64,000 nt of DNA from Streptacidiphilus jiangxiensis (GTDB lineage Bacteria; Actinomycetota; Actinomycetes; Streptomycetales; Streptomycetaceae), in assembly GCF_900109465.1 (NCBI RefSeq), contig NZ_FOAZ01000020.1, positions 124,001 to 188,000 on the forward strand, written 5' to 3'. The notes under the pieces were generated by a model. The model searched no databases and was not told the origin of the DNA. It worked only from the letters and a program-made list of their open reading frames with translations. Shown one piece after another: positions 42,114 through 59,256 of this stretch; position 1 is the first letter of the stretch; the number at the start of each line of letters is the position of its first letter. The position numbers were made by a program, and so were the translations under genes.

Positions 42114-42237
42114 GGCGTCTCCCTCGTCCTGTCCGACCGCTGACGTTCCATCGTGACACAGTCGTTCCGATCGCCATGCTATGGAAGACTTGTCGCCTGC
42201 GCTGCGGTTTCCGCGGCAGACCGGGCGGGGAGGCGGC

Positions 42238-44655
42238 ATGCAGGACGACTCCGAGGCGGGCGGAGTGGGCTCGCTCGGCCGTGCGGAGTTGGACACCGTC
42301 GCCACCGTCGCGGACTTCGGGCGGGCGCTCACCCGGCTGCGGGCTGGAGCCGGGCTCAGCATCCGCGGTGTGGCGGAGCGGTCGCAGGTCTCGCTCAGCA
42401 CCCTGAGCGGGTACTTCGCGGGGACACATCTGCCCGGGCCGGCGCACGCGGCCAAGCTGCGGCGCGTGTTGGCGGTCTGCGGGGTCACCGACGGGCCGGA
42501 GATGGACCGTTGGCACGAGGCGTGGATCCGGTTACGGCACGAGGGCGGCGGGCCGCGGCCGGTCGCGGAACCGGCCGCCCCGACGACCTTACCGACACCC
42601 GCCGCATCTGTCGGCCTGGTCGGGCCGCGCGCGGCCGAGGCGGTGCGGCCGGTGGCCCGCCCGGCCCGGCACGTGCTGCCGAGCATCCGTCCACCGTTGG
42701 AACGGCTCGCCCGGGAGCCGAGGGTGCGGGGGCGGGACGCGCTCGTGGGACGTCTCGCGGACGCGCTGCGCCCGGGGGCGTCACCGCGCGTGCACGTGCT
42801 GCACGGGCTGGCCGGGGTGGGTAAGAGCACGGTGGCGCTCGCGGTCGCCGGGCTCGCCCAGGGGCGCGGGGCCCGGGTCTGGTGGGCCGGAGCCCGCACT
42901 GCCGACGCGACCGCCGACGCGATGTACGCGCTGGCCGCCGAACTCGGGGCGTCCCGCCAGCAGTTGGAGCACGCCAGTCTGCCCGACCTGGTGTGGCGGC
43001 TGCTGGGCGCGCAGCGCGGGCCGTGGCTGCTGGTGTTCGACGGGGCCGACGACACCGACACGGTGCTCGCGCCGGGCAGCGGCCCCGCCGCGGACGGCAC
43101 GGGGTGGGTCCGCGCGGCGCCCACAGGGCAGGGCACGGTGCTGCTGACCACCAGTGACGGCCACACCTGGCTGGGGGCGCGGTCCAGCGTGTCGGCGCGG
43201 CGCGGCTGGTTCACCACCCACCGGGTGCACCCCCTGGACTCGGGCGATGCCGCCCGCGTCCTGCGAGAGTTGGCACCGGACGCGGGCGACGCGGCCGAGG
43301 CCGAGGCACTGGCCCGGCGCTTGGGCGGTCTGCCGCTGGGGCTGCGCCTGGTCGGTGGCGCGCTGGCTGCGGCGGCCCGGGTGCCCGCCGGGTTCGCCGA
43401 TCAGGCGACCCCGCGCACCTTCGCGGCCTACGCGGCCGCCCTGGACGGCGGCGCGCTGGGCGGCTCCGGCGCCTGGCCGGGCTTCGAGGGGACGGGCGTG
43501 GGCTGGCGGGTGGCACTGGCACAGTTGGAACGTCGCGGCCACTTCGCCGCGCGGCCCCTGCTGCACCTGCTGGCGTGCCTGGCGCCCGGTCCCGTCTCGT
43601 GGGCGGCACTGCTGCGGCCACACCTGCTGGCGGCCTCCCCACTGTTCCCGGGGTTGACGGCGCTCGGGCTGTGCGAGGTCCTGGACGCCCTGACCGATGT
43701 GGGGCTCGTGACCCGCTACCGGGAGCAGCCGGACGAGCTGGTGGAGGTGCCGCCGCTGGTGCGGCGCTGCTTCCGCGACGCACCCGAGGTGCGCGGACAG
43801 CTGGATGCCCATGTCGCGCTGTTGACGGCCCTGCTGGTGGCGGCCGGGGGCCAGCGCGACGGCCGCGACCCGCAGTCCTGGCCCGGGCTGGAGGCGCTGG
43901 CTGGGCAGGAACGGGCGGCACTGGACCTGCTCGCCGACGCTGACGCGTCAGGTCTGGTCCGCCTGCCCGACCAGCTGCTGGCACCGGTGCTGCTGGCCGG
44001 ACGGCACCGCCGGGCCGCCGGGCGGCTGCGGGATGCCGAACGGATGCTGGCCCAGGGGCTGGCGGACGGCCGACGGCTGCTGGGCCGCGACCACGCGGAC
44101 GTGCTCGCCCTGGAGCACGAGCTCGGCCGCGTCCGGCTGGGCCGAGGGGACGCCGAACGGGCGGAGCGCGAACTGCGCGCCGTGCTGGACGCCAGGGTCC
44201 GCCTGCTCGGCCCCGACCACCCCGACACCCTGACCACGCAGCACTATCTCGGCCGGGCGCTGGTCGAGCGGGGCCGGCTCCCGGAGGCGCACGCCTGGTT
44301 CTCCCGGACGCTGCGGGCCCGGGAGCGGGTGCTGGGCCCCGCGCACCGGGACACCCTGACCAGTCGCAACAACATCGGCCTCGTGCTGGTCGAGCAGCGT
44401 CGGTACGACGAGGCCAGGACAGTGCTGGAGCAGGTGCTGGCCGAGCGGGTCGCCGCGCTCGGCGACGGCCACCCGGCCACCCTGGTGACCCGTCAGCACC
44501 TCGCCCGGCTCACCGCGGACACGCGGGGCGCCGGGCCCGGCCGTGAGGCCTACCGGGCGCTGCTGGCCGACTGCCGCCGGGTGCTGGGCCCGGACCATCC
44601 GCGCACCGCGGCCGCGCGGGCCGCGCTCACCGCGTTGTCGCCGCCGCAGGAGTGA
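42238..44655 (+). CDS. HTH-STAND-TPR NTPase
   Basis: This protein of about 805 residues starts at ATG 42238, which has a GGCGGGGAGG ribosome site; ATG 42181 is the longest alternative. An XRE-type HTH (about 26-85, LSIRGVAERSQVSLSTLSGYF) is followed by a Pro/Ala linker, a STAND/NB-ARC ATPase with Walker A GLAGVGKST at 190-198 and Walker B LLVFDGAD at about 264-271, and C-terminal TPRs (about 610-790) of the kinesin-light-chain type with repeated LGPDHPDTL and LGPAHRDTL. The NTPase should oligomerise on ligand sensing. It converges on the terpenoid operon, overlapping the last gene by 106 nt, and is divergent from the kinase-like gene. Confidence 0.88.
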   Translation: MQDDSEAGGVGSLGRAELDTVATVADFGRALTRLRAGAGLSIRGVAERSQVSLSTLSGYFAGTHLPGPAHAAKLRRVLAVCGVTDGPEMDRWHEAWIRLRHEGGGPRPVAEPAAPTTLPTPAASVGLVGPRAAEAVRPVARPARHVLPSIRPPLERLAREPRVRGRDALVGRLADALRPGASPRVHVLHGLAGVGKSTVALAVAGLAQGRGARVWWAGARTADATADAMYALAAELGASRQQLEHASLPDLVWRLLGAQRGPWLLVFDGADDTDTVLAPGSGPAADGTGWVRAAPTGQGTVLLTTSDGHTWLGARSSVSARRGWFTTHRVHPLDSGDAARVLRELAPDAGDAAEAEALARRLGGLPLGLRLVGGALAAAARVPAGFADQATPRTFAAYAAALDGGALGGSGAWPGFEGTGVGWRVALAQLERRGHFAARPLLHLLACLAPGPVSWAALLRPHLLAASPLFPGLTALGLCEVLDALTDVGLVTRYREQPDELVEVPPLVRRCFRDAPEVRGQLDAHVALLTALLVAAGGQRDGRDPQSWPGLEALAGQERAALDLLADADASGLVRLPDQLLAPVLLAGRHRRAAGRLRDAERMLAQGLADGRRLLGRDHADVLALEHELGRVRLGRGDAERAERELRAVLDARVRLLGPDHPDTLTTQHYLGRALVERGRLPEAHAWFSRTLRARERVLGPAHRDTLTSRNNIGLVLVEQRRYDEARTVLEQVLAERVAALGDGHPATLVTRQHLARLTADTRGAGPGREAYRALLADCRRVLGPDHPRTAAARAALTALSPPQE

Positions 44656-45719
44656 GCAGTCCCGTCCGGCAGGGCGGCGTCCAGGTAGTGGGCGGGCAGA
44701 CGGGCCAGCAGCCGCGCGGCCGGGTCGGCGAACCCCTCGTCGACCAGCGCCCGCCGGGCCCGCTCCGCCCAGGCCCGGGCGACGGCCACCGCCGGCGGCA
44801 CGCCGAGCCGTCGCACGGTCTCGTAGGCGTGCGCAGTCTCGGCGTCGCCCGCGTCCTCCCGTAGCACCCCGGCGAGCCCGGACCCGCCGGCGCCGCGGGC
44901 GGCCAGCAGGACCGGCAGGGTGTAGACGCCGCGCGGGATGTCCTGCCGCACAGGCTTGCCGCAGCTCTCCGGTGTGGCCAGGACGTCGGCCAGGTCGTCG
45001 GCTATCTGGAACACGACACCGAAGCAGGCTCCGTAGCGGGCCAGCGCCCGGGCGGCGCCCGGTCCGGACGTCGTGCCGCCGCGCCGCGTGCCGCCCGCGG
45101 CCTCCCGCACCGGCAGGGCGCCGAGCACGCAGGCGGCGCTGATCAGCGCCGCCGTCTTGCCGTGGACCTGGCGCAGGTATGCGGCGGGCGTGCCGAGGCG
45201 GTGGCGCTGGGCGGTCTCCAGGGCCTGGCCGTCGCACATGGCCAGGAACGCCTGGTGCCAGACCCGGTGTACCTCCGGTCCGGCGTCCGCGAGCAGCAGG
45301 CCGGCCGCCGCCAGCAGGCGGTCCCCGCCCACGACGGCGCCCTCGGCGCGGTGCGTGGCGTAGACGGTCGGCGCGCCGCCGCGCACGTGGGAGCGGTCCA
45401 TCAGGTCGTCGTGGACCAGGGAGCCCAGGTGCAGCAGTTCCACGGCGGCCGCCCGGCGCAGCAGTGCCGGCTCCGCGGCAGTGCCCGTGAGCTCGGCGAC
45501 GGCCAGCAACAGCCCGGGCCGCAGCCGTTTGCTGGGACGCCGCACGGTGCGGGCCAGGGCTTCGGCCAGGTCAGGCGAGGGGCTGGCGGCGGCCTCGGCC
45601 AGCAGCTCCTCCAGCGCCGCGGCGGTGGGCGCGGGCAGCGCCAGGGGGCCGAGCACCTCGGCCGGGGAGGCGGGGCGCGGCGCCGGGACGATCGGCCCGG
45701 CCGTCGTCGTCCAGGTCAC
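44550..45719 (-). CDS. Polyprenyl (E) diphosphate synthase
   Basis: This protein of about 389 residues starts at GTG 45719 with a GGGAGG ribosome site. It is a trans-isoprenyl diphosphate synthase: GRKRL-like RRPSKRLRPGLLL, first aspartate-rich motif LGSLVHDDLMD, the GDRLLAAA segment, a GKTAALISAA helix, and second aspartate motif VFQIADDLADV followed by GKPVRQD. It should make a C15-C25 or longer prenyl diphosphate for the UbiA enzyme encoded just upstream, whose stop codon overlaps its start by 4 nt. The C-terminal 40 residues lie beyond the usual domain and are antisense to the end of the STAND gene. Confidence 0.92.
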   Translation of the reverse strand: MTWTTTAGPIVPAPRPASPAEVLGPLALPAPTAAALEELLAEAAASPSPDLAEALARTVRRPSKRLRPGLLLAVAELTGTAAEPALLRRAAAVELLHLGSLVHDDLMDRSHVRGGAPTVYATHRAEGAVVGGDRLLAAAGLLLADAGPEVHRVWHQAFLAMCDGQALETAQRHRLGTPAAYLRQVHGKTAALISAACVLGALPVREAAGGTRRGGTTSGPGAARALARYGACFGVVFQIADDLADVLATPESCGKPVRQDIPRGVYTLPVLLAARGAGGSGLAGVLREDAGDAETAHAYETVRRLGVPPAVAVARAWAERARRALVDEGFADPAARLLARLPAHYLDAALPDGTAHSCGGDNAVSAARAAAVRGWSGPSTRRQSASSAR

Positions 45720-46912
45720 GGCCGCCTCCCTTCGGCCATGGTCCGTGCCGACCGGCGGGCAGCCCGCCGGGTATGGACGGCGCGCAGCCGGGCCAGCGCC
45801 AGCACGGCCGCGAACCACGCTGCGACGGCGGACGCCATCAGGGCGGCGGAGCGGCCGGGCAGCACCGCGGCGCAGCCCAGCAGGAAGGCGAGAGTGTTCC
45901 CGAACGACCAGCCGCCGTTGCGCAGCCAGCCGGGCGGCAGTTGCCCGCGACGCGACGGTGCGGACAGCTCGGAGCGGGAGACGTCGGCGAAGGGGCCGGC
46001 CCCCCGGAGCAGCCGGGCCAGGCCGACGGTCGAGGCCATCGCGAGCACGTCGGCGGCCGACGCCAGCCAGGTCTGGCGGGCCGTCCAGCCGTCGGCGGCC
46101 AGCACCGCCGTCGCCGCGGTGACCGCGGCGACCACTCCCGCCTGGGCGGACAGCACGAAGGCCAGGTAGCGGCGCGGGAAGTGGAAGGCGCCGTCGCGCG
46201 TGGGGTGGACCCCGAGGACCAGGGCGGTCGTGCGCGACCCGGCCGAGCGGTCGGTGGCGATGTCCTTGAGGTTTCCCACCGAGCTGTTGGTGGCGACCAT
46301 GTGGAACAGGAAGGCGACCGCCATCAGGCAGGCGGCCGCGCCCGGCCGCACCCCCCTGGCCAGCGCCACGAGCGGGAGCGGCGCGGCCATGGCGACGCCG
46401 AAGAGGTAGTCCCACAGCAGGGGCGAGCCCGGCCCCTGGGCCTTCTGCAGGATGTTGAGCCAGGCCGTGAGCACCACGACGCCCGCGAGCCCGACCCGGG
46501 CGGCCGCGCCGTGCGCGAAGGCCCAGTCTGCGGCGACGAGCACGGCCGCCTCGGTGGCCGCCCAGCCGGCCACGACCGCGGGGGTGACCTCGCCCCGCAC
46601 GAGCGGGCTGCGGACCCGGGCCGGGTTGATCCGGTCCGAGGCGACGTCGGTGACGTCGTTGACGTGGCAGGCGAAGGCCTGGAGCAGTGTCCCGGCGGCG
46701 ACGAGCAGGGCCCAGCCCGCCCAGGTGAGGCCCGGCGCGAGCAGCCCGCCGACGACATAGGGCAGCCAGGTGAAGACCGCGACGGGAAGACGGGACAGGA
46801 CGACGTAGTGCCGGACGGGCGCGGCCGTGGCGGTGGCCGGGCCGCCCGGTCGGTGCGGTGCGGGCCGGGACCGGCGCGCGGGCCGCTCCTCCCAGGCCTG
46901 GTCAGTGGTCAT
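45716..46912 (-). CDS. UbiA-family membrane prenyltransferase
   Basis: This 398-residue integral membrane protein starts at ATG 46912. It has about eight to nine helices and the two UbiA aspartate motifs: HVNDVTDVASDR with the NPARVRSPLVRGE extension, and GNLKDIATDRSAGSRT. UbiA enzymes move a prenyl group from its diphosphate to an aromatic ring, a quinone precursor or, in archaeal lipid synthesis, a glycerol derivative; some cyclise the prenyl chain instead. No aromatic-acceptor gene is present in the operon, while lipid-type genes are, so a glycerol-like or terpenoid acceptor is my inference. It overlaps both neighbours (11 nt and 4 nt). Confidence 0.9.
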   Translation of the reverse strand: MTTDQAWEERPARRSRPAPHRPGGPATATAAPVRHYVVLSRLPVAVFTWLPYVVGGLLAPGLTWAGWALLVAAGTLLQAFACHVNDVTDVASDRINPARVRSPLVRGEVTPAVVAGWAATEAAVLVAADWAFAHGAAARVGLAGVVVLTAWLNILQKAQGPGSPLLWDYLFGVAMAAPLPLVALARGVRPGAAACLMAVAFLFHMVATNSSVGNLKDIATDRSAGSRTTALVLGVHPTRDGAFHFPRRYLAFVLSAQAGVVAAVTAATAVLAADGWTARQTWLASAADVLAMASTVGLARLLRGAGPFADVSRSELSAPSRRGQLPPGWLRNGGWSFGNTLAFLLGCAAVLPGRSAALMASAVAAWFAAVLALARLRAVHTRRAARRSARTMAEGRRP

Positions 46913-47885
46913 CGGGTCCTCCTGAGGGCAGGGTCGCGCCGAGTGGCGCGACCTCGAAGAAGGGGAAGCGTGTGGCCAGGGCCGTGCGGCCGCGGCGGAG
47001 CAGGCCGGGCACGGGCGCGGGCAACGCCCGGGTGGCGTGCTCGAATACGGCGCCAACGACCACGCCGGCGTGGAAGAGGACCAGCCAGGCCAGCAGCGTC
47101 CGGTGCCGATGGCCCGGCCCGCGTCCGTAGAAGGCCGTCAGGTCGCGGCGGGCGACGGCGAACCGGTGGCCCGCCTCGGCCAGGGCGGCGGGCAGCGGGC
47201 CGACCAGCGAGACGCGGCCGTCCGCGCGGTCCTCCAGGCGGTCCTCCAGGTCGTCCATGTACTGGAGGTACGACCCGAACGAGCGCAGGGCGCGTTCCTC
47301 CTCGGCGCCGAAGGCCGGGTTGACGGCGGCGAAGTACAGGCACACCGAGTGGTGGCCCTTGTCGCGGGTCAGCTCGGCCAGGGCCGCCGATGGCAGGTCC
47401 GGCGCCTGCGTCTGGGCCTGCGAGCGCCGCTGGGTGGTGATCATCCGCTCCAGGTGCGCCCGGATCGCGGCCGGGTCCGCGACCGACTGCCAGCAACGGG
47501 CGGCGAGTTCGCCCAGGACGCTTTCCCAGGGGTCGTCCGGGTCGGGCCGCCGGGTACCGAGGACCACCTCCTCCAGCGCGTCCAACTGCCGCGCCGATGC
47601 GGCGCGTCGGTCGTAGGCGTGGTCGAGCAGGTGGGTGACGGCGCCGAGCAGGACGCCCAGGCGGGTGTCGTGGGGCGCGCGGCGCACGGTGGCGTACAGG
47701 AACAGCAGCGCGTTGATCCGTTGGACGGTGTGGGTGAGGTGACGCTCCTCGGCGTCGTCGAGGTACAAGTCCAGGCGATGCAGCAAGGACGTCCGAAGGA
47801 GCGTCAGCTCTGCGGCGGCACTGGCGCATTCGTGGTTGGCGGTGCGCCAGGGCAGGGTGCGGGGGGTCGGGCCGGGGCCGGTCAT
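46902..47885 (-). CDS. Class I isoprenoid-fold protein A
   Basis: This 327-residue all-helical protein is of the class I isoprenoid enzyme fold, in a divergent subfamily. Acidic residues sit where the two metal-binding motifs of prenyl synthases lie: LLDHAYDRRA in the first half and YLQYMDDLEDRLEDRAD in the second. The first motif is weaker than in its two relatives in this operon. It could be a terpene synthase or a head-to-head condensing enzyme acting on a prenyl diphosphate. ATG 47885 overlaps the stop of the preceding gene by 4 nt. Confidence 0.72.
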   Translation of the reverse strand: MTGPGPTPRTLPWRTANHECASAAAELTLLRTSLLHRLDLYLDDAEERHLTHTVQRINALLFLYATVRRAPHDTRLGVLLGAVTHLLDHAYDRRAASARQLDALEEVVLGTRRPDPDDPWESVLGELAARCWQSVADPAAIRAHLERMITTQRRSQAQTQAPDLPSAALAELTRDKGHHSVCLYFAAVNPAFGAEEERALRSFGSYLQYMDDLEDRLEDRADGRVSLVGPLPAALAEAGHRFAVARRDLTAFYGRGPGHRHRTLLAWLVLFHAGVVVGAVFEHATRALPAPVPGLLRRGRTALATRFPFFEVAPLGATLPSGGPDDH

Positions 47886-48904
47886 CGGATCACCTCGCGG
47901 CGGGCGAAGAGGGTGGGGACGGAGGGCGGCCGGACCGGCCGCTCCGGGGCGGGCACCGCGCCTCGGCCGACCAGCCGGGCCAGCGCGGTCAGGTACAGCC
48001 AGCAGGTCAGGCCGTCGACGAAGGGCCTGGCCCGGCGCGGGCCGTACAGTGACGTCAGGCGCCGGTCGAGGGCGTCCAGTTCCTCGTGGAGCAGCCGTAG
48101 CGGCAGGGCGTCGAGGGTGGCCGCGGTCATCACCCCGGCCCGCAGGTCGACGGCCCGGTCCTGGTAGTCGTCGACGAGCTGGAGAAAGGCGCCGAGGGCC
48201 AGCAGGGCTTCGCGCTGGGCCGCGGACGGTGCGTGCTGCACCAGGCCGCCGAGCACGAGCATGCCCAGGCCGCCCTTCGTGCGCGAGGCGTCGAGCAGCG
48301 CTGCCGCGTCGGCGCGGCCCGCGGCGTCGCGTCCGTTCGCCGTGAGGCGGACGGAGGCGAGCTGGGCGGCGTGCAGGGCCGGCAGCGCGGCGTAGGCGGT
48401 GCGGTGGCGGTCCGGGTCGGTCCGAGCGCGCAGCGCCCGGAACAGGGACGCGGCGGCGCGGGCGGCGCCGGGTCCGGGCGCCGGGCCGGGCAAGGGCGCG
48501 TCGGCGGCGGCCGGGGCTGCGAGCCAGTCGTTTACGAGGTCCGCGGCCGACGGACCGGCGTGCTCGTCCAGAGCGTCGTCGTACAGGCGGGTGAACGCGC
48601 CCGCGAGCACCGCCGTCGCCGGGTCCACGGTGTGACCGGTCAGCCGTGCGTGACGGACGAGCAGCAGTCCGCCCTGGACGGCCCAGGGCAGAAGCCGGTC
48701 GGCGAGGCGCGGATCGCCGCCCTCGGGCAGCAGCGGTGCCACGGTCCCGGTGTAGGCGGCGGCCAGGGCGTCGCAGTCGGCGTTGACGCCGGGCAGCGCG
48801 GGCAGCAGCCGGACGGCCAGCCCCGGGAGACGCAGAAGCCGGCGCACGTTCCCGCGCACGTTCCGGCGCGCGGCGTCGGTGCCGGGGCGGTCAGCGGCGC
48901 TCAT
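47882..48904 (-). CDS. Class I isoprenoid-fold protein B
   Basis: This 340-residue all-helical protein has the class I isoprenoid synthase motif pair: FTRLYDDALDE at about residue 105 and FLQLVDDYQDRAVD at about 250. Both fit DDxxD. Sequence outside the motifs differs from ordinary prenyl synthases, and no KxxxR-type FARM neighbourhood was seen, so activity could be terpene cyclisation rather than chain elongation. It resembles protein C at 54046-55152 in both motifs. It overlaps the GT2 gene by 14 nt and protein A by 4 nt. Confidence 0.75.
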   Translation of the reverse strand: MSAADRPGTDAARRNVRGNVRRLLRLPGLAVRLLPALPGVNADCDALAAAYTGTVAPLLPEGGDPRLADRLLPWAVQGGLLLVRHARLTGHTVDPATAVLAGAFTRLYDDALDEHAGPSAADLVNDWLAAPAAADAPLPGPAPGPGAARAAASLFRALRARTDPDRHRTAYAALPALHAAQLASVRLTANGRDAAGRADAAALLDASRTKGGLGMLVLGGLVQHAPSAAQREALLALGAFLQLVDDYQDRAVDLRAGVMTAATLDALPLRLLHEELDALDRRLTSLYGPRRARPFVDGLTCWLYLTALARLVGRGAVPAPERPVRPPSVPTLFARREVIR

Positions 48905-49652
48905 ACCAGTAGCCGCATCGCGTCAGGTCGGTCCTGGCCCGCCGGGAGACCGCCATCAGGGCGTAGGTGGACAGCATCCCGCCGCGGTGGAAACCGCGCG
49001 GCGAGGCGTGCACGGTGATGCCGTCCAACTGCGCCCACCGGGCCCGGCCGCGGCGGGCGTCGGCCCGCAACTGCTCCAGGAAGGCGACGTCCTCGTAGGC
49101 GTACAGATCCTCCCGGTAACCGCCGACCGAGGCGAAGTAGCCGGCGCGCACCGCCAGCACGCCGAAGGACATCCGCTTGACCCGGGTGAGCAGGCGCAGC
49201 GCGCCGTGCGCGCACAAGCGGGTGAGCGGATCGATCTCGGCGGGTTCGAGCTCCACGCGCACCCCGGCGGCGGTCAACGTGGGCTCGGCGCCGAAGCGGG
49301 CGGTGATCCCGGTCAGGAAGCCGAGCGGGACCCGGTAGTCCGCGTCCACGAAGACCAGCAGGTCGCCGCGGGCGGCGCGGGCGCCGGCGTTGCGGGCGCG
49401 GGCGACGCCGCGCCGCGGCACTTGGACCACCCGCGCGCCGAACGCGCGCGCCGTTTCGGCGGTGGCGTCCGTGCTGGCGTTGTCGGCGACGACTATCTCG
49501 CAGCTCACGGCGCCGCCGATGTCGGCCAAGCGCAGTGCGGAGTGGTGCAGCGAGCCCAGGCAGCGCGGCAGGAAGCACGCCTCGTTGAAGGCAGGGACGA
49601 CGACGGACACGTGCGGCCGGTCCGTTTCGCCGGTTGCCGTAGGGGAGTTCAC
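48891..49652 (-). CDS. Family 2 glycosyltransferase
   Basis: This 253-residue GT-A enzyme starts at GTG 49652 with an AAGGAAGG ribosome site. It has SVVVPAFNEACFLPRCL, VADNASTDATAETA, RRGVARARNAGA, and the metal-binding LVFVDADYRVP. A later GGYREDLYAYEDVAFLEQLRAD is a typical acceptor-side acidic segment. No membrane helices are present. GT2 enzymes transfer sugar from a nucleotide donor to lipids, prenols or other sugars. In this operon it probably glycosylates the prenylated product. Confidence 0.9.
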   Translation of the reverse strand: MNSPTATGETDRPHVSVVVPAFNEACFLPRCLGSLHHSALRLADIGGAVSCEIVVADNASTDATAETARAFGARVVQVPRRGVARARNAGARAARGDLLVFVDADYRVPLGFLTGITARFGAEPTLTAAGVRVELEPAEIDPLTRLCAHGALRLLTRVKRMSFGVLAVRAGYFASVGGYREDLYAYEDVAFLEQLRADARRGRARWAQLDGITVHASPRGFHRGGMLSTYALMAVSRRARTDLTRCGYWYERR

Positions 49653-51166
49653 GCGGGGCCTTCCTTTCTGAGCAGGACGCGGTGGTGCCCGGCGAGCGGG
49701 AGAAGGCGGTGCAGCATCCCGGAGGCGACCTCCAGCGGCAGGACGAGCGCGACGGCCACGGCGGCGGCCAGGCAGCCGGCCGTGGCCCGTACGGCGCCGA
49801 GCCGGCGCCGCTGGTGCGGGTGGGGCAACGCGGCCTCGAACAGCAGCGCGGCCGAGGCGGCGTACTCGCCGGGCAGGTAGACCGGCCGGGAAGCCAGCAC
49901 GCGCGCCCCCGGACAGGCGCGGCGCAGCGTCGCCGCGAGCGAGGCGGGAGAGTGGACGTGCCGGTGGAAGGGAGGCAGCAGCGGAAACCAGCGCGAGCCG
50001 AACAGGCGCCCGGCCAGCCCGCCGGTCACCGGTGTCTCCACGCACAGCACGCCGCCCGGCACCAGCAGGTCGACGGCGCGGCGCAGCACGGCCTCGGGGT
50101 CGGCGACGTGCTCGACGACGTGGAACAGGGTGACGGCGTCGTAGCGGTCGCTGGTGCGGAACCGCGCGAAGTCGCCGTCGTGCACGGCGAGCCCGGCGCG
50201 GCGCGCCTGGCCCGCGAGCGCCGGGTCGACCTCGACGCCCTCGCCCTCCGCGCCCGTCGCGGCCAGCGCGCGCAGCAGACCCCCGGTGCCGCAGCCCACG
50301 TCGAGGACGCGCCTGCCCTGGCCGAGTCGGTGGCGGCGGGCAAGCCAGCGGGCTCGCGGCCGGTAGACCAGGCGGGCCACCGCGGGGCTGTCCATGACCG
50401 CGGTGACGAAGGGGAGTTGGGGCTCGGCCAGGATGACCGGCCCGTCGTTGTGCGTGGCCTTGTCCGCTCCGCCGTCCGGCTCCAGCCGGCGGAGGTGACC
50501 GCAGTGCGGGCAGCCGGCGTAGCGGCTCAGCGCGCCGCTGCCGAAGGCGCGGTCGGTGGCGGTGAACGCTTGCCGGTCGTCGACCGGGAGACGGCATCCG
50601 GGGCACGGCTCGTGCCGCGCGCCCGCGTCGCTGCGCAGCAGCACCAGGGCACGCGGGCGCGGCGCGGCGCTCAGCAGCCCGCCCAGCCGGTCCGGCCGCA
50701 GCCGGTCCGCGAACAGGCCGCGCCACTGCGCGAGGCTCAGGCCGCCCGGTCCGATGCGGCGGAAGCCGAACTCGCGGACCAGGTGCTGGGCGAGCCGCGG
50801 TCCGGTCACGCACAGGCTGGTACGGGCCTGCGGCAGGGCCGCCTCGAACAGCAACCGCGCCGTCCCGCGACCCCGGAACGCGGGGTGGACGTAGAGACCC
50901 GCGAGCTCCTGGGTGACGCCGTCGCGGTGCGGGACGCACAGCAGCCACCCGGCGGTCTCCCCGGACGCGGTGGTGGCCAGCAGCAGCCGGCCGGTGTCGC
51001 AGGCGCGAGCGAGCTGGGCGCGGCTGCGCGGGGCGAGGGCGGGATCGTCGCGCAGGGTGCGGTGGACGGTGGCCACCAGCGCCTGGCGGCGGTGCGGTTC
51101 GGCGGGTGCCGCGCTTACGGTGAGGGGTTCCGGTGCCGTGACGGGTGCGTGGCGGGGCGGGTTCAT
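49649..51166 (-). CDS. GNAT acetyltransferase - Zn ribbon - methyltransferase fusion
   Basis: This 505-residue fusion starts at ATG 51166. Residues about 20-150 form a GNAT domain (ELAGLYVHPAFRGRGTARLLFEAAL). A short zinc-ribbon-like segment has EPCPGCRLP and AGCPHCGHLRR. From about 280 there is a class I SAM methyltransferase with VLDVGCGTGGLLRALA, GVEVDPALAGQARRAG and VTLFHVVEHVADPEAVLRRA. The C-terminus has hydrophobic helices (LAAAVAVALVLPLEVASGML) that may tether it to membrane. The methyltransferase half resembles CxxC-containing sugar or lipid head-group methylases. The fusion implies N-acylation and methylation of one substrate; this is inference. Confidence 0.85.
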   Translation of the reverse strand: MNPPRHAPVTAPEPLTVSAAPAEPHRRQALVATVHRTLRDDPALAPRSRAQLARACDTGRLLLATTASGETAGWLLCVPHRDGVTQELAGLYVHPAFRGRGTARLLFEAALPQARTSLCVTGPRLAQHLVREFGFRRIGPGGLSLAQWRGLFADRLRPDRLGGLLSAAPRPRALVLLRSDAGARHEPCPGCRLPVDDRQAFTATDRAFGSGALSRYAGCPHCGHLRRLEPDGGADKATHNDGPVILAEPQLPFVTAVMDSPAVARLVYRPRARWLARRHRLGQGRRVLDVGCGTGGLLRALAATGAEGEGVEVDPALAGQARRAGLAVHDGDFARFRTSDRYDAVTLFHVVEHVADPEAVLRRAVDLLVPGGVLCVETPVTGGLAGRLFGSRWFPLLPPFHRHVHSPASLAATLRRACPGARVLASRPVYLPGEYAASAALLFEAALPHPHQRRRLGAVRATAGCLAAAVAVALVLPLEVASGMLHRLLPLAGHHRVLLRKEGPA

Positions 51167-52137
51167 CGAGGGTCTCCCGGGGTGCGCACGACGAGGACGA
51201 GGAGGCTGCGGAAGTAGCGGACCCGGTCGCCCACCAGCAGCGAGCGCCGGAGACGGTCGTCGGGCTTGAAGCGGTCGGCGAGGTCGGCGGGGACGTCCAG
51301 ACGTCGGTGCCGTGAGCCGGCCAGCACTCGGGCGCCCGGCGCGGCGGTGCGGGCGACCTCGGTGAGCAGCGCGTGCCAGCCGGGCCGGGTGACCCAGTCG
51401 GCGATGTTCGACAGGGCGAACCGGTCGACGCCGGCGTCGGGTTGGTCGCGGAGGTGATGGCGCAGGTCGGTGTGGACCAGCTGGATGCGGTGCGCGTGGG
51501 CGGACAGGGCCGGGTAGAGCTCCTCCGGCGGACAGGGCAGCAGCTCAGCCCTCTCGCCCGCGGCGTGACGACGCGTCAGCAGGGCCGAGCGGTCCGGGGA
51601 CCGCCAGGCGAGGGGCCGCCACAGCGGAGCCCCGGCGGTGGCGAGGCGCGGGACGGCCCCCTGCCAGACCAGCCCAGCGGTGATCATTCGGGCGTTCCGG
51701 TCCCAGAAGACGCGAGTGCCGACCGGGAGCGCGGGCCGTACCTCGTGGTAGGCGGCCAGGGCCGCATCGGGGTCCGGGGCGAGGCCGAGCAGGTCGCGGA
51801 ACCCCGGGTACGGCAGCTGCATGGCGGCGGTGCGCTTGAGTTCGGTCAGGTGGAGCTGGGCGGCGGACAGGTCGACGGCGGTGACCCGCCCGGGGGCGCG
51901 GCCCAGCAGCGCGAGCGGGATGTCGCCCCCGGAGGCGAGCGTGACCACGTGCTGGCCGGGGGCGACCGCGAGCGCGGTGTCGACGGTGCGCGGGTCCTCC
52001 AGCGTCGCCGAGAAGGCCACCGGGCTGACCAGCGCGTTGAGGCGTCGGTACAGGCGTCGCGAGGCCCGGAGCCGGTCGGGTCCGTGGTACCGCAGAGGCT
52101 GCGGGACGGTGGGCTCCGGTGTGGTGTCGGGTCTCAT
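51163..52137 (-). CDS. DUF3419 / BtaA-like aminocarboxypropyl transferase
   Basis: This 324-residue protein starts at ATG 52137 and resembles the DUF3419 family, whose best-known member BtaA transfers the 3-amino-3-carboxypropyl group of SAM to diacylglycerol in betaine-lipid synthesis. The SAM-binding strand reads VVTLASGGDIPLALLGRAPG and is followed by VTAVDLSAAQLHLTELKR. A family-like FWDRNARMITAGL segment and the late VDRFALSNIADWVT motif are present. It is shorter than BtaA but complete for the family. In this operon it suggests addition of a homoserine-like head group to a lipid or prenylated glycerol. Confidence 0.8.
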   Translation of the reverse strand: MRPDTTPEPTVPQPLRYHGPDRLRASRRLYRRLNALVSPVAFSATLEDPRTVDTALAVAPGQHVVTLASGGDIPLALLGRAPGRVTAVDLSAAQLHLTELKRTAAMQLPYPGFRDLLGLAPDPDAALAAYHEVRPALPVGTRVFWDRNARMITAGLVWQGAVPRLATAGAPLWRPLAWRSPDRSALLTRRHAAGERAELLPCPPEELYPALSAHAHRIQLVHTDLRHHLRDQPDAGVDRFALSNIADWVTRPGWHALLTEVARTAAPGARVLAGSRHRRLDVPADLADRFKPDDRLRRSLLVGDRVRYFRSLLVLVVRTPGDPR

Positions 52138-53030
52138 CGTCGTCCCTCGGGTCGGGCCGCGCCCCGGGCGGAGGCAGCGCTGGGGGCAGCGGCACGGGTG
52201 GCGTTCGCGGCGAGGGCGGCGAGCAGGCGCGGCCCCCGGTAGAGCGCGCGGTGGCCGCAGCGTTCGACGAGGCAGCCGTCCGGGTCGCCGAGCCCGAAGA
52301 AGTCGACGTAGGCGGGGCCGCCACCCTCGCGGCGGACCAGCACGTTCGGCAGGTACAGGCCGCGCCGGTCGGCGCGCGGGACCAGATCCAGACCGATGCC
52401 GTCGCGGTCGGCCATGAGCTGGGCCAGGCACAGCAGCACGGCGACCGCGGCGGCGGTGGCCGGATCGGGTTCCGCCGGAGCGAGCCGGACGGCCCGCGGG
52501 CCGGCGTCCTGCTGGAGCAGCGCGGGCACGTCGGCGACGCCCAGGTCCGGGAAGGACGCCACGGTCGGCCGGGACGGCTCCGGGACCAGCCCGAGTACCG
52601 GCCCATCGCCGAACGCGGCGGACACCACCATCCGCCGAAGACCGCCGGGCAGGCCGGGAACGGTGTGGCGCACGGCGGCTTCCGCCGTCTCCCGGGTGAC
52701 CGTGCCGAGAACCGCGACGGCGCGGTCGTGCCCACGACGCAGCCGGTCCGCGCGCGCCCGGTCCGGCCGGAACGGGTTGTCCGGCCATGGCGCCCGGCGC
52801 AGCGGCGCGGCCCAGCGCGGCTCGCGGAGCCCGCCTCCCGGAGCCGACCCCGACCGGGTCCGCAGGGCGCGCCGAAGGTCGTCCACCGCGAGGAACTTGA
52901 CGACCAGTCCGCACGCGAGACGCCCGAGGTAGGCGGTGGTGCCAGGCTGCCGCAGGGGCAGCGCGACCGTCACGGCCTGCGGGCCGGACGCCTCGATCAC
53001 GGCGCGCACTCGCAGCGGGTCCGGCGTCAT
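52134..53030 (-). CDS. Unknown operon protein (298 aa)
   Basis: This 298-residue soluble protein starts at ATG 53030. I do not recognise its family. Visible features are an opening VIEASGPQAVTVALPLRQPG, a central RLRRGHDRAVAVLGTVTRETAEAAVRH, and a C-terminal half with GPAYVDFFGLGDPDGCLVERCGHRALYRGP, containing two cysteines. It is fused into the operon by 4-nt overlaps on both sides, so it should be required for the pathway. It might be an acyl- or prenyl-handling partner of the acyltransferase encoded just upstream. Confidence 0.75.
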   Translation of the reverse strand: MTPDPLRVRAVIEASGPQAVTVALPLRQPGTTAYLGRLACGLVVKFLAVDDLRRALRTRSGSAPGGGLREPRWAAPLRRAPWPDNPFRPDRARADRLRRGHDRAVAVLGTVTRETAEAAVRHTVPGLPGGLRRMVVSAAFGDGPVLGLVPEPSRPTVASFPDLGVADVPALLQQDAGPRAVRLAPAEPDPATAAAVAVLLCLAQLMADRDGIGLDLVPRADRRGLYLPNVLVRREGGGPAYVDFFGLGDPDGCLVERCGHRALYRGPRLLAALAANATRAAAPSAASARGAARPEGRR

Positions 53031-54049
53031 CGTGTGCCCTCGGGACGCAGTTCCGCCGGGGCCGCGCGCCAGCCGGGGATCGCGCGCGCGGCGTTGTCCC
53101 GTGCCTCGGCCCAGATCCGGTGCAGCCGCGCGGTCAGCTCGACGGCCGTCGCCGCGCCGGTCGGCCCAGCTGGCGTCAACGCGTCCAGCGGGACGGGGGC
53201 GTCGGCGTAGACGTACGGGCCGGGGTCGGCGTAGGCCAGGCGCAGCCGGGCGGCGGCCCGAAGCGCGGAGCGCGGTCCGGGCAGCCGGGAGGCGAGCAGA
53301 TGGGCGTCCCGCACGCCGTAGACCATCGGCACCAGGTGCACCGGGCGTCCGCCGGGCTCGGCCGCCCTGGCCCGCAGCAGCAGTCGGACCAGGTGTCCGG
53401 CGCCCGGGCGCCAGGGCGCGTCCTGCTGCAGCGAGCCGCTCGGGAACAGGTGGACGCCGCCGCCCTCGCCCGCGATCAGCCGTGCCGCACAGGCGAGTTG
53501 GGCGGCGTTGGCGCGGCGGGCGGCGAAGTCGTCGCGGACCGGCCAGACCGCCTGCTCCACCGCCGCCAGCGTGCGGTCCCGCACGCCGCGCGGCGCCGGC
53601 CCCCCGCCTCCGGTGCGGGCCAGCGGCAGCACCATCCGGGCCAGGTGCGGGCCCACCGAGGCGACGAAGTCGCCGGCCAGGAAGTACACGTCCTCGCGCA
53701 CCAGGAGCGCGTTGAACAGGGCGGGCTCCAGCCCGCAGGCGTGGTTGCCGAAGGCGAGGAAGGGCTCCTCGGCCAGCACCTGCCAGGTGCGCGGGTGCAT
53801 CTCGTAGCGTGGTCGGACACCCCACTCTTCCAGCATCCGCCGCGAGCCCGCGCCGATGCCGTGGGCGCCGACGTCCGCGTCGTAGCGCAGCAGCGCCGTG
53901 CACAGCGCCCGCACCGGCACGAGGTTCTCCAGCGCCGCCGCGCCCGCCCTGGCCAACGGCCCTCGTTGCGTCGCTCGCTGGTAGGCGTTCGCGGCCTCGC
54001 GCAGCCCGCCCCGCCGGAACACGTCGATCAGCGCGTCGGTGGTCTTCAT
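53027..54049 (-). CDS. PlsC-like lysophospholipid acyltransferase
   Basis: This 340-residue acyltransferase starts at ATG 54049. A NH-x4-E variant of the PlsC catalytic block is at residues 102-108 (AFGNHACGLEPALF), with Glu where Asp is usual. A later GGGVHLFPSGSLQQD matches the FPEGTR-type block III. No strong membrane helix is seen. Enzymes of this group put a fatty acyl chain on a glycerol or glycolipid acceptor. In this operon it points to a lipid rather than a simple terpene as product. The Asp-to-Glu change in the motif is worth checking. Confidence 0.82.
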   Translation of the reverse strand: MKTTDALIDVFRRGGLREAANAYQRATQRGPLARAGAAALENLVPVRALCTALLRYDADVGAHGIGAGSRRMLEEWGVRPRYEMHPRTWQVLAEEPFLAFGNHACGLEPALFNALLVREDVYFLAGDFVASVGPHLARMVLPLARTGGGGPAPRGVRDRTLAAVEQAVWPVRDDFAARRANAAQLACAARLIAGEGGGVHLFPSGSLQQDAPWRPGAGHLVRLLLRARAAEPGGRPVHLVPMVYGVRDAHLLASRLPGPRSALRAAARLRLAYADPGPYVYADAPVPLDALTPAGPTGAATAVELTARLHRIWAEARDNAARAIPGWRAAPAELRPEGTR

Positions 54050-55152
54050 GCGCCTCTCCGGTCGGCGGGTGCGACGGCGCTGCGTCCCCGTAGCAGCAAC
54101 GCGGCCCACGCGTTGCCGGGCGTCCTGCCCGCGCTCCCGGGGGCGCCGGCCGCGTGGGACGGTGCGTCAGATCGGGCGGCGGCCCGCAACCGCGAAGCGG
54201 CCCGCCCCACCGTGCTCAGCAGCAGGAACACGTGGGCCTCGTCCACCACGCGGCGGGCGGCACGGGGTCCGTGCACCCCGGCCAGCCGGGCCTGGGCTGC
54301 CGCCAGGCGCTCGACGAGTCCGGCCGGGTCGCAGGCGCCGACGCCCGGCAGGGTGGCGATACCCAGCGCGGCGTCGGCGTCCCGGTCGTGGTGGTCGTCG
54401 CACAGTTGCAGGGCGGCGCCCAGTTCGGCGACGGCGGCTCGTTCCTGAGCCCCCATCCGCGGCCGGGCGAGGGAGAACAGGACGGTGAGTGTCGCCGCGC
54501 CCTTGCCCCAGGTGACCTCCTCCAGTTCGGCCCGGGTCACCAGCGGCGAGGTCTGGCGGGCGGAGCGGCACTGGTAGTAGTGCACGGCGGTCAGGGCCGC
54601 GTAGAGCGGGTCGTCGGGACGGCGCCCCAAGCGCCGCTCCAGGGTGTGGAACAGGTCACCGGCCAGGGCCTCCAGCGGGCCGGCCGGGGTCCACGGCCGA
54701 TGGGCGAAGAGGAGGCCCGCACGCTCGGCGAAGCCAGTGCCCGCAGAATCGTCCAGGAGATCGTCGTACAGGCGCGCGAACGCGCAGCCGAGGGCGGTCA
54801 CCTCGGCCGCGTGCCGGGTGAACGGCACGCCTGACGCCCGGCAGTAGGCGGCCACCAGGTGGCCGCCCTTGGCGCTCCACGCCCTCAGCGTGGCGTGCAG
54901 CCCGGCGTGGACGGTGTCCGTGTCCGGCTGCCGCGCCAGGACCGGGGCCACCGCCCGGTCGAACGCCCGGCCGCAGGCACCCGCGTCGCGTGCCGCCGCG
55001 AGCAGTACTGCGGGCGCCGCCCGCAACCCCCGCAGGGTGCTGCGGACTTGTGGGGGCCCGCCGCGACCGGCGGGCCCGCGCCCGGGAAGGGCGGCCCGGC
55101 ACGATCGGTGTGGCGGACGTATGGGAGAAACAGCGGACGGCTGCTGGGGCAC
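54046..55152 (-). CDS. Class I isoprenoid-fold protein C
   Basis: This protein of about 368 residues is the first gene of the operon. GTG 55152 has an AAGAGG ribosome site; GTG 55158 and a longer frame to 55206 are alternatives. The first about 45 residues are Pro/Arg-rich and weakly conserved in character. The fold motifs are FARLYDDLLDDSAG at about residue 120 and ALQLCDDHHDRDAD at about 250, two good DDxxD-like sites. It resembles protein B at 47882-48904. It is probably a prenyl diphosphate-using synthase or cyclase. Confidence 0.75.
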   Translation of the reverse strand: MPQQPSAVSPIRPPHRSCRAALPGRGPAGRGGPPQVRSTLRGLRAAPAVLLAAARDAGACGRAFDRAVAPVLARQPDTDTVHAGLHATLRAWSAKGGHLVAAYCRASGVPFTRHAAEVTALGCAFARLYDDLLDDSAGTGFAERAGLLFAHRPWTPAGPLEALAGDLFHTLERRLGRRPDDPLYAALTAVHYYQCRSARQTSPLVTRAELEEVTWGKGAATLTVLFSLARPRMGAQERAAVAELGAALQLCDDHHDRDADAALGIATLPGVGACDPAGLVERLAAAQARLAGVHGPRAARRVVDEAHVFLLLSTVGRAASRLRAAARSDAPSHAAGAPGSAGRTPGNAWAALLLRGRSAVAPADRRGA

Positions 55153-55290
55153 GGGCACGCACCTCTTCCGTGATGTCGACCGGCCCGGTCCGGCACCGTG
55201 TGCCACGGAGGCGACGCGCGGTGCGGTGACCGGGACCCGCCCATCACAGCGCGCCGCCGGGCTCGGACGGGAACACGGTCACGTCCGACT

Positions 55291-55343
55291 CGGACGCTCT
55301 CGGACGCTCTCGGACGTCCGGCGTCCGGCGTCCGGCGTCCGGC
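55291..55343 (-). repeat. Tandem repeats upstream of terpenoid operon
   Basis: CGGACGCTCT occurs twice (55291-55310) and runs into four exact copies of the heptamer GTCCGGC (55316-55343). CGGACG and CGTCCG are complementary, so several alternative hairpins can form. The array lies about 140-200 nt upstream of the first operon gene, between it and the CHAT gene stop at 55399, and could act as an operator or a phase-variable spacer. Confidence 0.6.
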
Positions 55344-55398
55344 GGGACGGTGCCCCGGTGTTCGGCGGCGCTGCGTTCGGCGGCCCGGCCGCGACGGC

Positions 55399-58300
55399 TC
55401 ACACGCCGAAGTGCAGATACGCCGCCCACAGCCGGGGGTTGGTCGGGTAGCGGTCACGCAGCGCCCGGACGCCGTGGTGGACCGCCTCGGCCGGGGTCCG
55501 GCCGGGCTCGGTCAGCAGCGGGTAGAGGGCGGAGGCGACCTCGTGCGACCAGTCGTCCCCGACCGGCCACAACGTGCCGATGACATGCCGGAAGCCGGCC
55601 AGTTGCAGGGCGGCGGCGATGTGCAGCGACTCGTCGGGCAACCGCGCGCCGCCGTAGGCACTGCGGCACGAGGACAGGTAGGCGAGGTGAGCCCCGGTCA
55701 GCCGGCCCTGCACCAGGTCCCGTACCGAGAGCGGTCCGTCGGGCAGCAGCAGGGCGCTCGCGGACGGGTCGGCCGGATCGGTCAGGCAGTGGCAGGCGAA
55801 ATGCGCCCAACTCGCCGCGACCAGTGCCTCGGACACCGCCGCCCGCGTCGCGGCGGCGTCGAGGAGGGGTGCGCGCACGGGCCGGCCGGCCGCACGCAGG
55901 TGGGCGTGCACGGCCTCGGCCTCCGGGGCAGCATGGGGGAGCGAGCGCTCACCGGGCACCTCGGTGACCCCGACCGCGAGCGCCGGTCCGGCGGCGGCGC
56001 CGAGGGAACCGGCCTGCTCCGGCGTGCGATCGTCGGCGGCGTGCGCCAGGACCCGCAGCGTCGGGGCGTACGAGGAGACCACGCGGTCCAGCACACTCGC
56101 CCCGACTTCGTCCGGGCCGTCCGCTCCGGCCGCGTGCAGCGGCAGCAGCGCGAGCGGGCCGGTCGGCACCCAGGTGACCCGTGGCCAGGCCGCTCCGGGC
56201 GGGGGCGGGCCGATGGCCCCGAGCGCGTCCAGGACCGGTTCGGCGACTCTCGTCCACAGGCCGGCGAGGACCGCGCGCAGCTTGCGCGACGTGTCCCAGT
56301 CGTCCGCGTCCACGGCGTCCAGCATGGTGTTCGCCCACGCCACGGCGTCGGCATGGGTGAGCTCGGGCAGGGGCACAGGCGTCACCGCGCCGTCGTCGGC
56401 CACCAGCAGGGCGGCGCAGCCGTGCCGGGAGGCGTTGACCACCGCCACGACGCCGCCCTTCGGCGCGGTGGGCCGCGCAGGCGTCCCTGCGGCCTCGGGA
56501 CCTGCCAGATCCTGCCAGGCGCGGGCGGCGGCGCGCCGCGGCGCCCAGGGGTCGGCCGTGCTGAGCGGGTGCAGCGGTCCCCCGAAGGGGTCCGCCAGCG
56601 GCGCGACATCGGTGCTCAGCACACGGCGGAAGTCCTCCAGGCGGTCCGTGGCCGTGCCGCTCTGCGGCCGGTAGTCCAGGCCCTGACCGAGCAGCACCCC
56701 GCGGGAGCGTTCGAGCAGGTCGACGGCGCGGGCCGGGTCCCCGAGCCGCAGGGCCACCGCCGCGGCGTCGGCTCCGAGCCCGGTGAGCCGGCGCAGCTGG
56801 GCCTGCGCGCTCACCCGGGCCAGGGCCCGGTGGGCGACCTGCGACAGCAGCGCGATCGCCCGTTCGTAGGCGGCCTGGGCCGCCGTCAGGTCTCCCCGCC
56901 GGACCTCGCACTGCGCCTGGGCCTGCGCGGCAGCGGCCCGCCACAGCGGGGTGGCGGTGTCGCTGTCGGCACACTCGGCGTAAGCGCGGACCGCCTCCTC
57001 GGCCGCGTCTTCGGCGCCGCCGTCCGGCTCGGCCTCCGCGGCCCGGTCCAGCGCGCGGGCGAGGTTCAGCAGATAGCCGGCCCGCGCGGGATCTCTGGGC
57101 AGCGCGGCGTCGACGGCCAACCGGCCCAGCGCCAGCGCCTCCGTCAGATCCTCGGGGGCACCAGCGAGTCGGTGGCGCGCGAGCAGCGGGCCCACCAGGT
57201 TGGACCGGAACCCGGCCAGCTGCGGGGAGGCGTCCCCGGCCGCGTCCAGGCAGGCCCGGCCGCAGGTGATGGCCGCGTTCAGGTCGTTGGGCGCGTCGGT
57301 GAGTTCGTGACGGCGGAACAGTGCCAGGCCGAGGTCGGCGAGGTGACCGGCGTAGGCGGGGCCGTCCGATCCGGCGGCATTGGCCGCCTCGCCGTGGGCG
57401 GCGATGGCCCGGTCGATGTCGCGCGGGTCGCCGACCGCCTCGAAGCGGCGGATCAGCAGTGCTCCCAGGTTGGCCAGGGCCAGTTCCCGGCGGGCGGCCG
57501 CACGCGAGGGGGCGGCGATCGAGGCGCGGACCAGCCCAATGGCCTCGTCGAGGTCGCCGACCTCGCGGTCGACCTCGAACCTGACCCGCAGGGCGTTGGC
57601 GAGGTTGTGCAACCGCGACGGGCGGGCGGTGGCCGTCTCGGGGGTGAGCGCGGCGGACCTCCGGGCCAGGGCCACGGCCTCGTCGAGCTGCCGCCGGTCG
57701 CCGGCGCGGTCGAAGGTGCGCAGCAGGGCCAGGCTGACCAGGGACGCGGTGCGTGCCTCCGGCGCGCCGCCGCGCGCAGACGCGGCCAACGCGGCCCGGC
57801 CGAGCGTCAGCGCCAGCTCCAGGTCGGCGGCCCGGCCGGTCGCGTCGTAGCGGGTGCGCAGCAGCGAGCAGAGCCGCCCCAGGTGCCGCGTCCGGCGCGG
57901 GCCGGCCCCGGCCAGCCGCACCGCCCGGCGCGCCGCGAGGACGCCACGGGCCAGGTCCCGATGCGAGCCGCCGTGGACGTAGCGCCGCCGCATCGCCTCC
58001 GCCAAGCCGGACTGCACCTCGGCCCGCAGCGCGTCGTCGGGCGCCGCGGCCTGCGCCGCAGCGAGGTGGTGCAGGGCCTCGTCCAGCACGTCCTGGCTGC
58101 CGCTGGTCTCGTACTCGTGCAGCAGGACCACGGCCAGGTTGTACCGGGCTGTGGCGGTCCCCCGGCCCGTCCCGGGTGCCGTCGCGACGGCGCGGCGTGC
58201 CCAGGACTGCGCCGCTGCCAGATCGGGTGCGGACGAACGCCTGCGGTACCGCTCGCGCAGGCACGCGGCCAGGTTCGCGGCCACCGGGAAGAGCACCGGG

Positions 58301-59223: not shown

Positions 59224-59256
59224 ATGCCGCAGCCTAGCTAGACGGGCCACCGGACC

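Follow-up and report, generated by a model that had tools for sequence, protein, structure and literature searches.

A ten-gene operon of isoprenoid and lipid-type enzymes beside a STAND NTPase gene in Streptacidiphilus jiangxiensis

Within a stretch of 64,000 nucleotides (nt) from Streptacidiphilus jiangxiensis (contig NZ_FOAZ01000020.1, positions 124,001 to 188,000; hereafter called the window), we confirmed the existence of a translationally coupled operon of ten minus-strand genes, numbered g1 to g10 from its 5′ end. Our preferred explanation, to which we give about an even chance of being correct, is that these genes encode a strain-specific, co-transcribed isoprenoid-lipid pathway linked to a STAND-NTPase module of the NLR-like kind. 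Two comparisons carry this proposal. Three of the encoded proteins (g1, g7 and g8) belong to a class-I isoprenoid-synthase-like family that is undescribed as far as can be told, and outside the host genome members of this family occur paired with a NACHT gene. Furthermore, the gene for the UbiA-superfamily protein g9 lies in a three-gene neighbourhood with STAND and TCAD9 genes that the window shares with a second genus, which we take to be Frankia.

Architecture and enzymes of the operon

The ten genes are intact and span positions 44550-55158. Each of the nine junctions is an overlap, of 4 nt in seven cases, of 14 nt between g6 and g7 and of 11 nt between g8 and g9. These values were obtained by re-reading the starts and stops, and they are exactly those given in an initial reading of the window made from its letters (the original prediction). 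The extent of 44550-55206 proposed there is correct at the g10 end, but g1 probably starts at the GTG at 55158 or 55152 rather than at 55206, and GGAAGAGG lies just upstream of 55152. Short direct repeats (GCCGGAC, CGTCCGAGAG) occur in the spacer at 55158-55399, between g1 and a neighbouring TPR-CHAT gene, and might form an operator.

The G+C content of third codon positions (GC3) is 0.88-0.95 in all ten genes, with GC3 > GC1 > GC2 throughout, and a purine-rich stretch resembling a Shine-Dalgarno sequence lies upstream of every internal start except that of g7 (eight of nine). Given this coding-type bias and these ribosome-binding features, the ten open reading frames (ORFs) are not chance occurrences. 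The operon is part of a segment (window positions 40000-61000) with a G+C content of ~77%, compared with ~71% on both sides. This segment also encloses the TCAD9, STAND and TPR-CHAT genes and a CRISPR-like array, and it is bracketed by two IS256-type Transposase_mut genes. A composite transposon formed by these two genes was considered and ruled out, as their proteins are only ~28% identical. The reading frames across the CRISPR-like array yield repetitive ORFs of the PRARGDGP/HPRGRGEQ type.

These features bear on the view that the operon is a decaying or chance assembly, in which a horizontally acquired segment carries overlapping genes that do not make a working pathway. Although the single occurrence of the gene set, its position in a high-G+C segment between IS256-type transposases and the altered first Asp motif of g8 would all suit such an origin, we find it very improbable given the ten intact frames with their strong coding bias and Shine-Dalgarno-like sequences, the intact key motifs of g1, g7, g9 and g10, and a pair of transposases too dissimilar to have formed a composite element.

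Profile searches against Pfam and NCBIfam gave firm family matches for g10, g9, g4, g6 and g5. Thus the polyprenyl synthase, UbiA, BtaA-like, family 2 glycosyltransferase (GT2) and GNAT-methyltransferase calls of the original prediction are firm, and its one protein without a family still has none, whereas its PlsC call is weak and falls below the cut-off. The searches did not dissolve several of the assignments. Two domains are recognized in g5 (PF13489, 1.5e-22, and PF00583, 8.5e-07), and its methyltransferase part is UbiG-like. The g6 protein also scores 94 bits against TIGR04283, which is below the cut-off of 182. Membership of g9 in the UbiA superfamily is indicated by PF01040 and by the presence of both Asp-rich motifs; we know of no sequence feature that distinguishes a UbiA-type terpene cyclase from an enzyme of prenyl transfer.

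The g10 protein carries two DDxxD motifs, at residues 104 and 241, and its nearest structures in the PDB are deca-, hexa- and nonaprenyl synthases. Small residues before the first DDxxD point to a long chain in the polyprenyl synthase family, and the G and S residues at this position in g10 (HLGSLVHDD) therefore suggest a product of C25 or more. For g2, the PlsC profile PF01553 gives 16.2 bits against a gathering threshold of 23, and the protein has HX4E rather than HX4D and PSG rather than PEG. No Pfam or NCBIfam family, no PDB match and no convincing homologue among 346 actinomycete genomes was found for g3, whose AlphaFold model is poor (predicted local distance difference test, pLDDT, 33). 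An N...DFFG pattern prompted us to consider g3 as a kinase-like protein, and nothing, including this fold model, backed the idea.

Table 1. Genes of the operon and neighbouring features, in window coordinates. Values given with a profile are E-values unless marked as bits; the orphan-family HMM is the hidden Markov model of the class-I family described in the next section.
Feature	Coordinates	Strand	Description
g1	54046-55158	-	Class-I isoprenoid-synthase-like; motifs DDLLD ... QLCDDHHDRDAD; orphan-family HMM 3.6e-68
g2	53027-54049	-	PlsC/LPLAT-like acyltransferase with degenerate motifs HX4E and PSG; PF01553 0.0091, below cut-off
g3	52134-53030	-	Unknown protein; no family match
g4	51163-52137	-	BtaA/DUF3419-type aminocarboxypropyl transferase homologue; PF11899 2.7e-35
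g5	49649-51166	-	GNAT, two CxxC pairs, S-adenosylmethionine (SAM) methyltransferase (Methyltransf_23), hydrophobic C-terminal segment
g6	48891-49652	-	Soluble GT2 glycosyltransferase; PF00535 2.9e-23
g7	47882-48904	-	Class-I isoprenoid-synthase-like paralogue; DDALD ... QLVDDYQDRAVD; orphan-family HMM 2.6e-43
g8	46902-47885	-	Most divergent class-I paralogue; motifs DHAYD, QYMDDLEDRLED; orphan-family HMM 3.6e-22
g9	45716-46912	-	UbiA-superfamily membrane protein; NDVTDVASD, KDIATD; seven hydrophobic segments; PF01040 2.2e-12
g10	44550-45719	-	trans-Polyprenyl diphosphate synthase; PF00348 2.5e-43
HTH-STAND/NACHT NTPase-TPR	42181-44655	+	PF13560 2.1e-10, PF05729 1.7e-05, TPR; convergent with g10
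TCAD9 protein	40395-42131	-	PF19974 7.4e-09, 35.7 bits against cut-off 40; divergent from STAND gene
TPR-CHAT (caspase-like)	55399-58995	-	PF12770 1.3e-39; Csx29-like CHAT 4.1e-07; ~240 nt upstream of g1
IS256-type Transposase_mut	37337-38629	+	Flank of high-G+C segment
IS256-type Transposase_mut	61087-62388	-	Flank of high-G+C segment
CRISPR-like array	59252-60980		~29 repeat copies, ~61-nt spacing

The class-I family and its NACHT partners

No isoprenoid profile of Pfam or NCBIfam matches g1, g7 or g8. For g1, an AlphaFold model made from a six-sequence alignment has a pLDDT of 78.5 and a predicted template modelling (pTM) score of 0.77. In a Foldseek comparison of this model with the PDB, all 50 best matches are class-I isoprenyl diphosphate synthases (IDSs) or terpene synthases, with a probability of ~1, a best E-value of 2.3e-3 and target-normalised template modelling scores mostly of 0.45-0.62. 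The fold was modelled for g1 only, and g7 and g8 are assigned through homology: an HMM built solely from homologues outside the window matches all three proteins, which are therefore paralogues of one family. Its members carry the motifs RLYDDxxD, KG and QxxDDxxDxxxD, the first of which reads DHAYD in g8, a protein that also sits on a long branch of the family tree. The modelled fold of g1 and the two Asp-rich motifs uphold the call of three class-I isoprenoid-fold proteins in the original prediction. What that prediction missed is that the three belong to a common undescribed family and that this family is NACHT-linked elsewhere.

The g7/class-I family is absent from 13 congener genomes, and only distant orphan relatives of g7 are present in four of 298 other genomes of the host family. 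A scan of the GTDB collection with a single peptide pattern, which was not exhaustive, uncovered 13 loci in Streptomyces, Actinacidiphila, Nonomuraea, Actinophytocola and Amycolatopsis (a fragment), and at none of these 13 loci is another gene of the operon found alongside. Two of the loci are not informative for gene context: L029 runs out at the edge of its contig, and L038 is fragmentary. At all 11 others a gene for a membrane NACHT NTPase adjoins the class-I gene. The two-gene unit runs from the class-I gene to the NACHT gene, often with a 4-nt overlap: the genes overlap by 4 nt at six loci, abut at two and are divergent at one, and the NACHT gene lies ~1 kb upstream at the remaining two. 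Pairs are present in Streptomyces, Actinacidiphila, Nonomuraea and Actinophytocola (L026-L037; for example, L028 9866-12927), and the link recurs in every deep lineage of the class-I tree, of which there are at least three. Among 249 Streptomycetaceae genomes, 99 carry this membrane NACHT family, with up to four copies each and an average of less than about one copy per genome. At such a density, adjacency at 11 of 11 loci is not due to chance. PADLOC has no model for the pair, and this pairing is both more novel and better replicated than the operon itself.

The STAND-TCAD9-UbiA neighbourhood

The window does not contain the NACHT-linked pair as such, because its STAND protein is of another type, which matches the FxSxx_TPR model at 5.9e-61 (below the cut-off). 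A second link, this one to STAND NTPases, concerns the UbiA gene. The 346 actinomycete genomes were searched (E<=1e-20) with an HMM built from g9 and the two Rhodococcus proteins related to it, and the subfamily was detected in 11 of them, namely the host and ten genomes of the genus that we take to be Frankia. Close relatives of the TCAD9 protein, which in the window has an APH-kinase-like motif (HGDLH...NVLL...LIDLAK), are encoded in 14 of the 346 genomes, and the 11 with the g9 subfamily are all among these. At each of the nine Frankia loci fetched (L065-L071, L102, L103), the UbiA gene lies between HTH-STAND-TPR and TCAD9 genes, and the 3′ ends of the UbiA and STAND genes overlap or nearly so where examined. 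The homologues are ~46-54% (STAND) and ~36% (TCAD9) identical to the flanking proteins of the window, and the TCAD9 protein of locus L066 carries a TIR domain.

The same three genes are thus found at window positions 40395-46912 and at the nine fetched loci, with the difference that in the window g10 is inserted between the STAND gene and g9. The last ~35 codons of g10 and the 3′ end of the STAND-TPR gene occupy opposite strands of the same 106 nt (44550-44655). A match to the C-terminal tail of g10 in Frankia locus L071 corresponds to the antisense strand of a conserved TPR region. The UbiA family call of the original prediction was right, but the flanking STAND and TCAD9 genes common to Frankia had been missed. 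Given this neighbourhood and the NACHT link of the class-I family, the boundary of the system probably extends to ~40.4 kb. The TPR-CHAT gene at the other end is only a possible member.

A locus on a Rhodococcus ruber plasmid (NZ_CP129900; L053 11806-15961) includes two genes of the UbiA subfamily to which g9 belongs and is mostly unannotated in its gene table. Between the two lie genes for a class-I-like protein of 299 amino acids (with a 4-nt overlap) and a membrane protein. We rejected this locus as a parallel cluster, as the class-I-like protein falls outside the g1/g7/g8 family by HMM and has no Pfam match.

Proposed pathway and competing explanations

In the proposed mechanism, the HTH-STAND-TPR protein with its kinase-like TCAD9 partner would sense a signal and switch the operon. 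Judged from its family and motifs, g10 would synthesize a long polyprenyl diphosphate, which g1, g7, g8 and the membrane protein g9 may rearrange or transfer to an acceptor, as their folds and motifs suggest. The remaining steps are predicted at the family level: g6 would glycosylate, g2 acylate, g4 attach a SAM-derived aminocarboxypropyl group and g5 methylate and/or acetylate, and the outcome would be a prenyl membrane lipid with a polar head group. We infer that the ten enzymes serve one pathway under STAND/TCAD9 control. The prenylated, acylated, glycosylated and aminocarboxypropylated lipid named in the original prediction is a reasonable guess, which adds together the activities of the families and is not a deduced structure.

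Several observations weigh against this proposal. The conserved synteny of the ordered ten-gene set for which the original prediction recommended a search was not found in a second genome among those searched, and synteny therefore gives no evidence for joint action of all ten genes. In seven of the 346 genomes g4 has matches, which are either the window's own gene or distant BtaA relatives, and none of the four contexts fetched for them includes the operon. The plasmid collection contains no homologue of g1, g2 or g7 and only remote relatives of g4, g5 and g9. On the regulatory side, most members of the NACHT family in the sampled loci (L108-L134) have no class-I gene as a partner, the class-I-paired NACHT proteins are not orthologues of the STAND protein of the window, and the host genome has no NACHT protein of the paired family at E<=1e-25. 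One genome of a neighbouring genus carries the STAND-TCAD9 tandem without UbiA, and the Frankia loci represent one inherited locus and hence about one independent case. STAND/HTH/TPR regulators are common in actinomycetes, and adjacency in the window alone would be weak evidence.

A strong rival, which we consider possible rather than probable, is an ordinary, if novel, terpenoid, meroterpenoid or glycolipid cluster, where a C25-C35 diphosphate produced by g10 is cyclised or transferred by g9 and/or g1, g7 and g8, the other enzymes tailor the product and the STAND-HTH-TPR protein is a cluster-situated regulator. The enzyme content and the long-chain type of g10 are as expected for such a cluster, as is a strain-specific high-G+C segment with a g7 that 13 congeners lack, and a Streptomyces protein, StsC, is on record in a passage of PMC7693059 as a UbiA-type sesterterpene cyclase. 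However, g1, g7 and g8 belong to no known terpene-synthase family, the operon encodes no export or oxidising enzyme, and the same enzyme families are also found, in other genomes, alongside STAND/NACHT and TCAD9/TIR genes.

An anti-phage or altruistic-death device would exploit the same genes differently: an infection-sensing STAND/NACHT protein would activate the prenyl enzymes, the polyprenyl lipid pool would be consumed or modified, and growth would stop. We judge this unlikely. The coupling of NACHT and class-I genes at the 11 outside loci, the TIR domain of the Frankia TCAD9 protein, the TPR-CHAT neighbour and a weak resemblance between the NACHT region and the NCBIfam model of the antiphage protein EruA are all in its favour, but the EruA similarity covers only part of that region, the ten proteins tested have no PADLOC match, and ten biosynthetic genes are a large number for an effector of cell death.

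More broadly, the preferred explanation could be one instance of isoprenoid chemistry serving as the output of NLR-like switches in actinomycetes. The class-I family would then work with NACHT/STAND NTPases, and the operon would be an elaborated version in which three class-I copies, UbiA and lipid-tailoring enzymes produce, under the control of STAND/TCAD9, a dedicated lipid that acts as a signal or toxin. We put forward this generalisation tentatively, and regard it as rather doubtful at present.

Relationship to known systems

No described cluster of this composition was encountered in the libraries and open-access papers searched, which did not cover MIBiG, and to that extent the absence of a known pathway match stated in the original prediction holds. 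Among trans-isoprenyl diphosphate synthases and class-I terpene synthases, g10 is a regular member, and g1, g7 and g8 share the predicted fold and two Asp-rich motifs. The latter three nevertheless fall in no library family, have KG in place of the KT that is usual in IDSs, and are without the NSE/DTE second motif of canonical terpene synthases. With at least 15 members overlooked by the terpenoid models of Pfam and NCBIfam, this family lends itself directly to enzyme discovery. Similarly, g9 resembles UbiA prenyltransferases and UbiA-type terpene cyclases in its PF01040 match, its NDxxDxxxD and DxxxD motifs and its seven hydrophobic segments, whereas its subfamily is related, at ~30-40% identity, only to the Frankia loci and the Rhodococcus plasmid.

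Like the betaine-lipid synthases BtaA and BtaB, the operon has a DUF3419 (BtaA) homologue, g4, adjoined by a methyltransferase gene, g5. However, g5 is a GNAT fusion of the UbiG/Methyltransf_23 type rather than a stand-alone BtaB, and the remainder of the operon is isoprenoid; its methyltransferase domain matches the methyltransferase beside the BtaA homologue of L025 weakly (1.5e-5). Moenomycin-type phosphoglycolipid clusters combine a prenyl group, glycosyltransferase and methyltransferase functions around an unusual class-I prenyltransferase. Prenyl, glycosyltransferase and methyltransferase functions are also present in the operon, but its ten genes include no GGGPS-like MoeO5 homologue and only one glycosyltransferase. 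The operon is a compact candidate for the synthesis of a new polar prenyl lipid.

The known outputs of bacterial NLR-like proteins are mainly nucleases, NADases, proteases and pores. If the coupling described here is functional, lipid or isoprenoid synthesis would be a new kind of output for these proteins. STAND NTPase, TPR, TCAD, TIR and CHAT components, which occur in or near the homologous loci, are also those of the STAND/NACHT and TCAD conflict systems of Kaur et al. (2020, 2021). The difference lies in the isoprenoid enzymes present here, as those two surveys (PMC7159879, PMC8195603) mention no isoprenoid, prenyl or terpene component.

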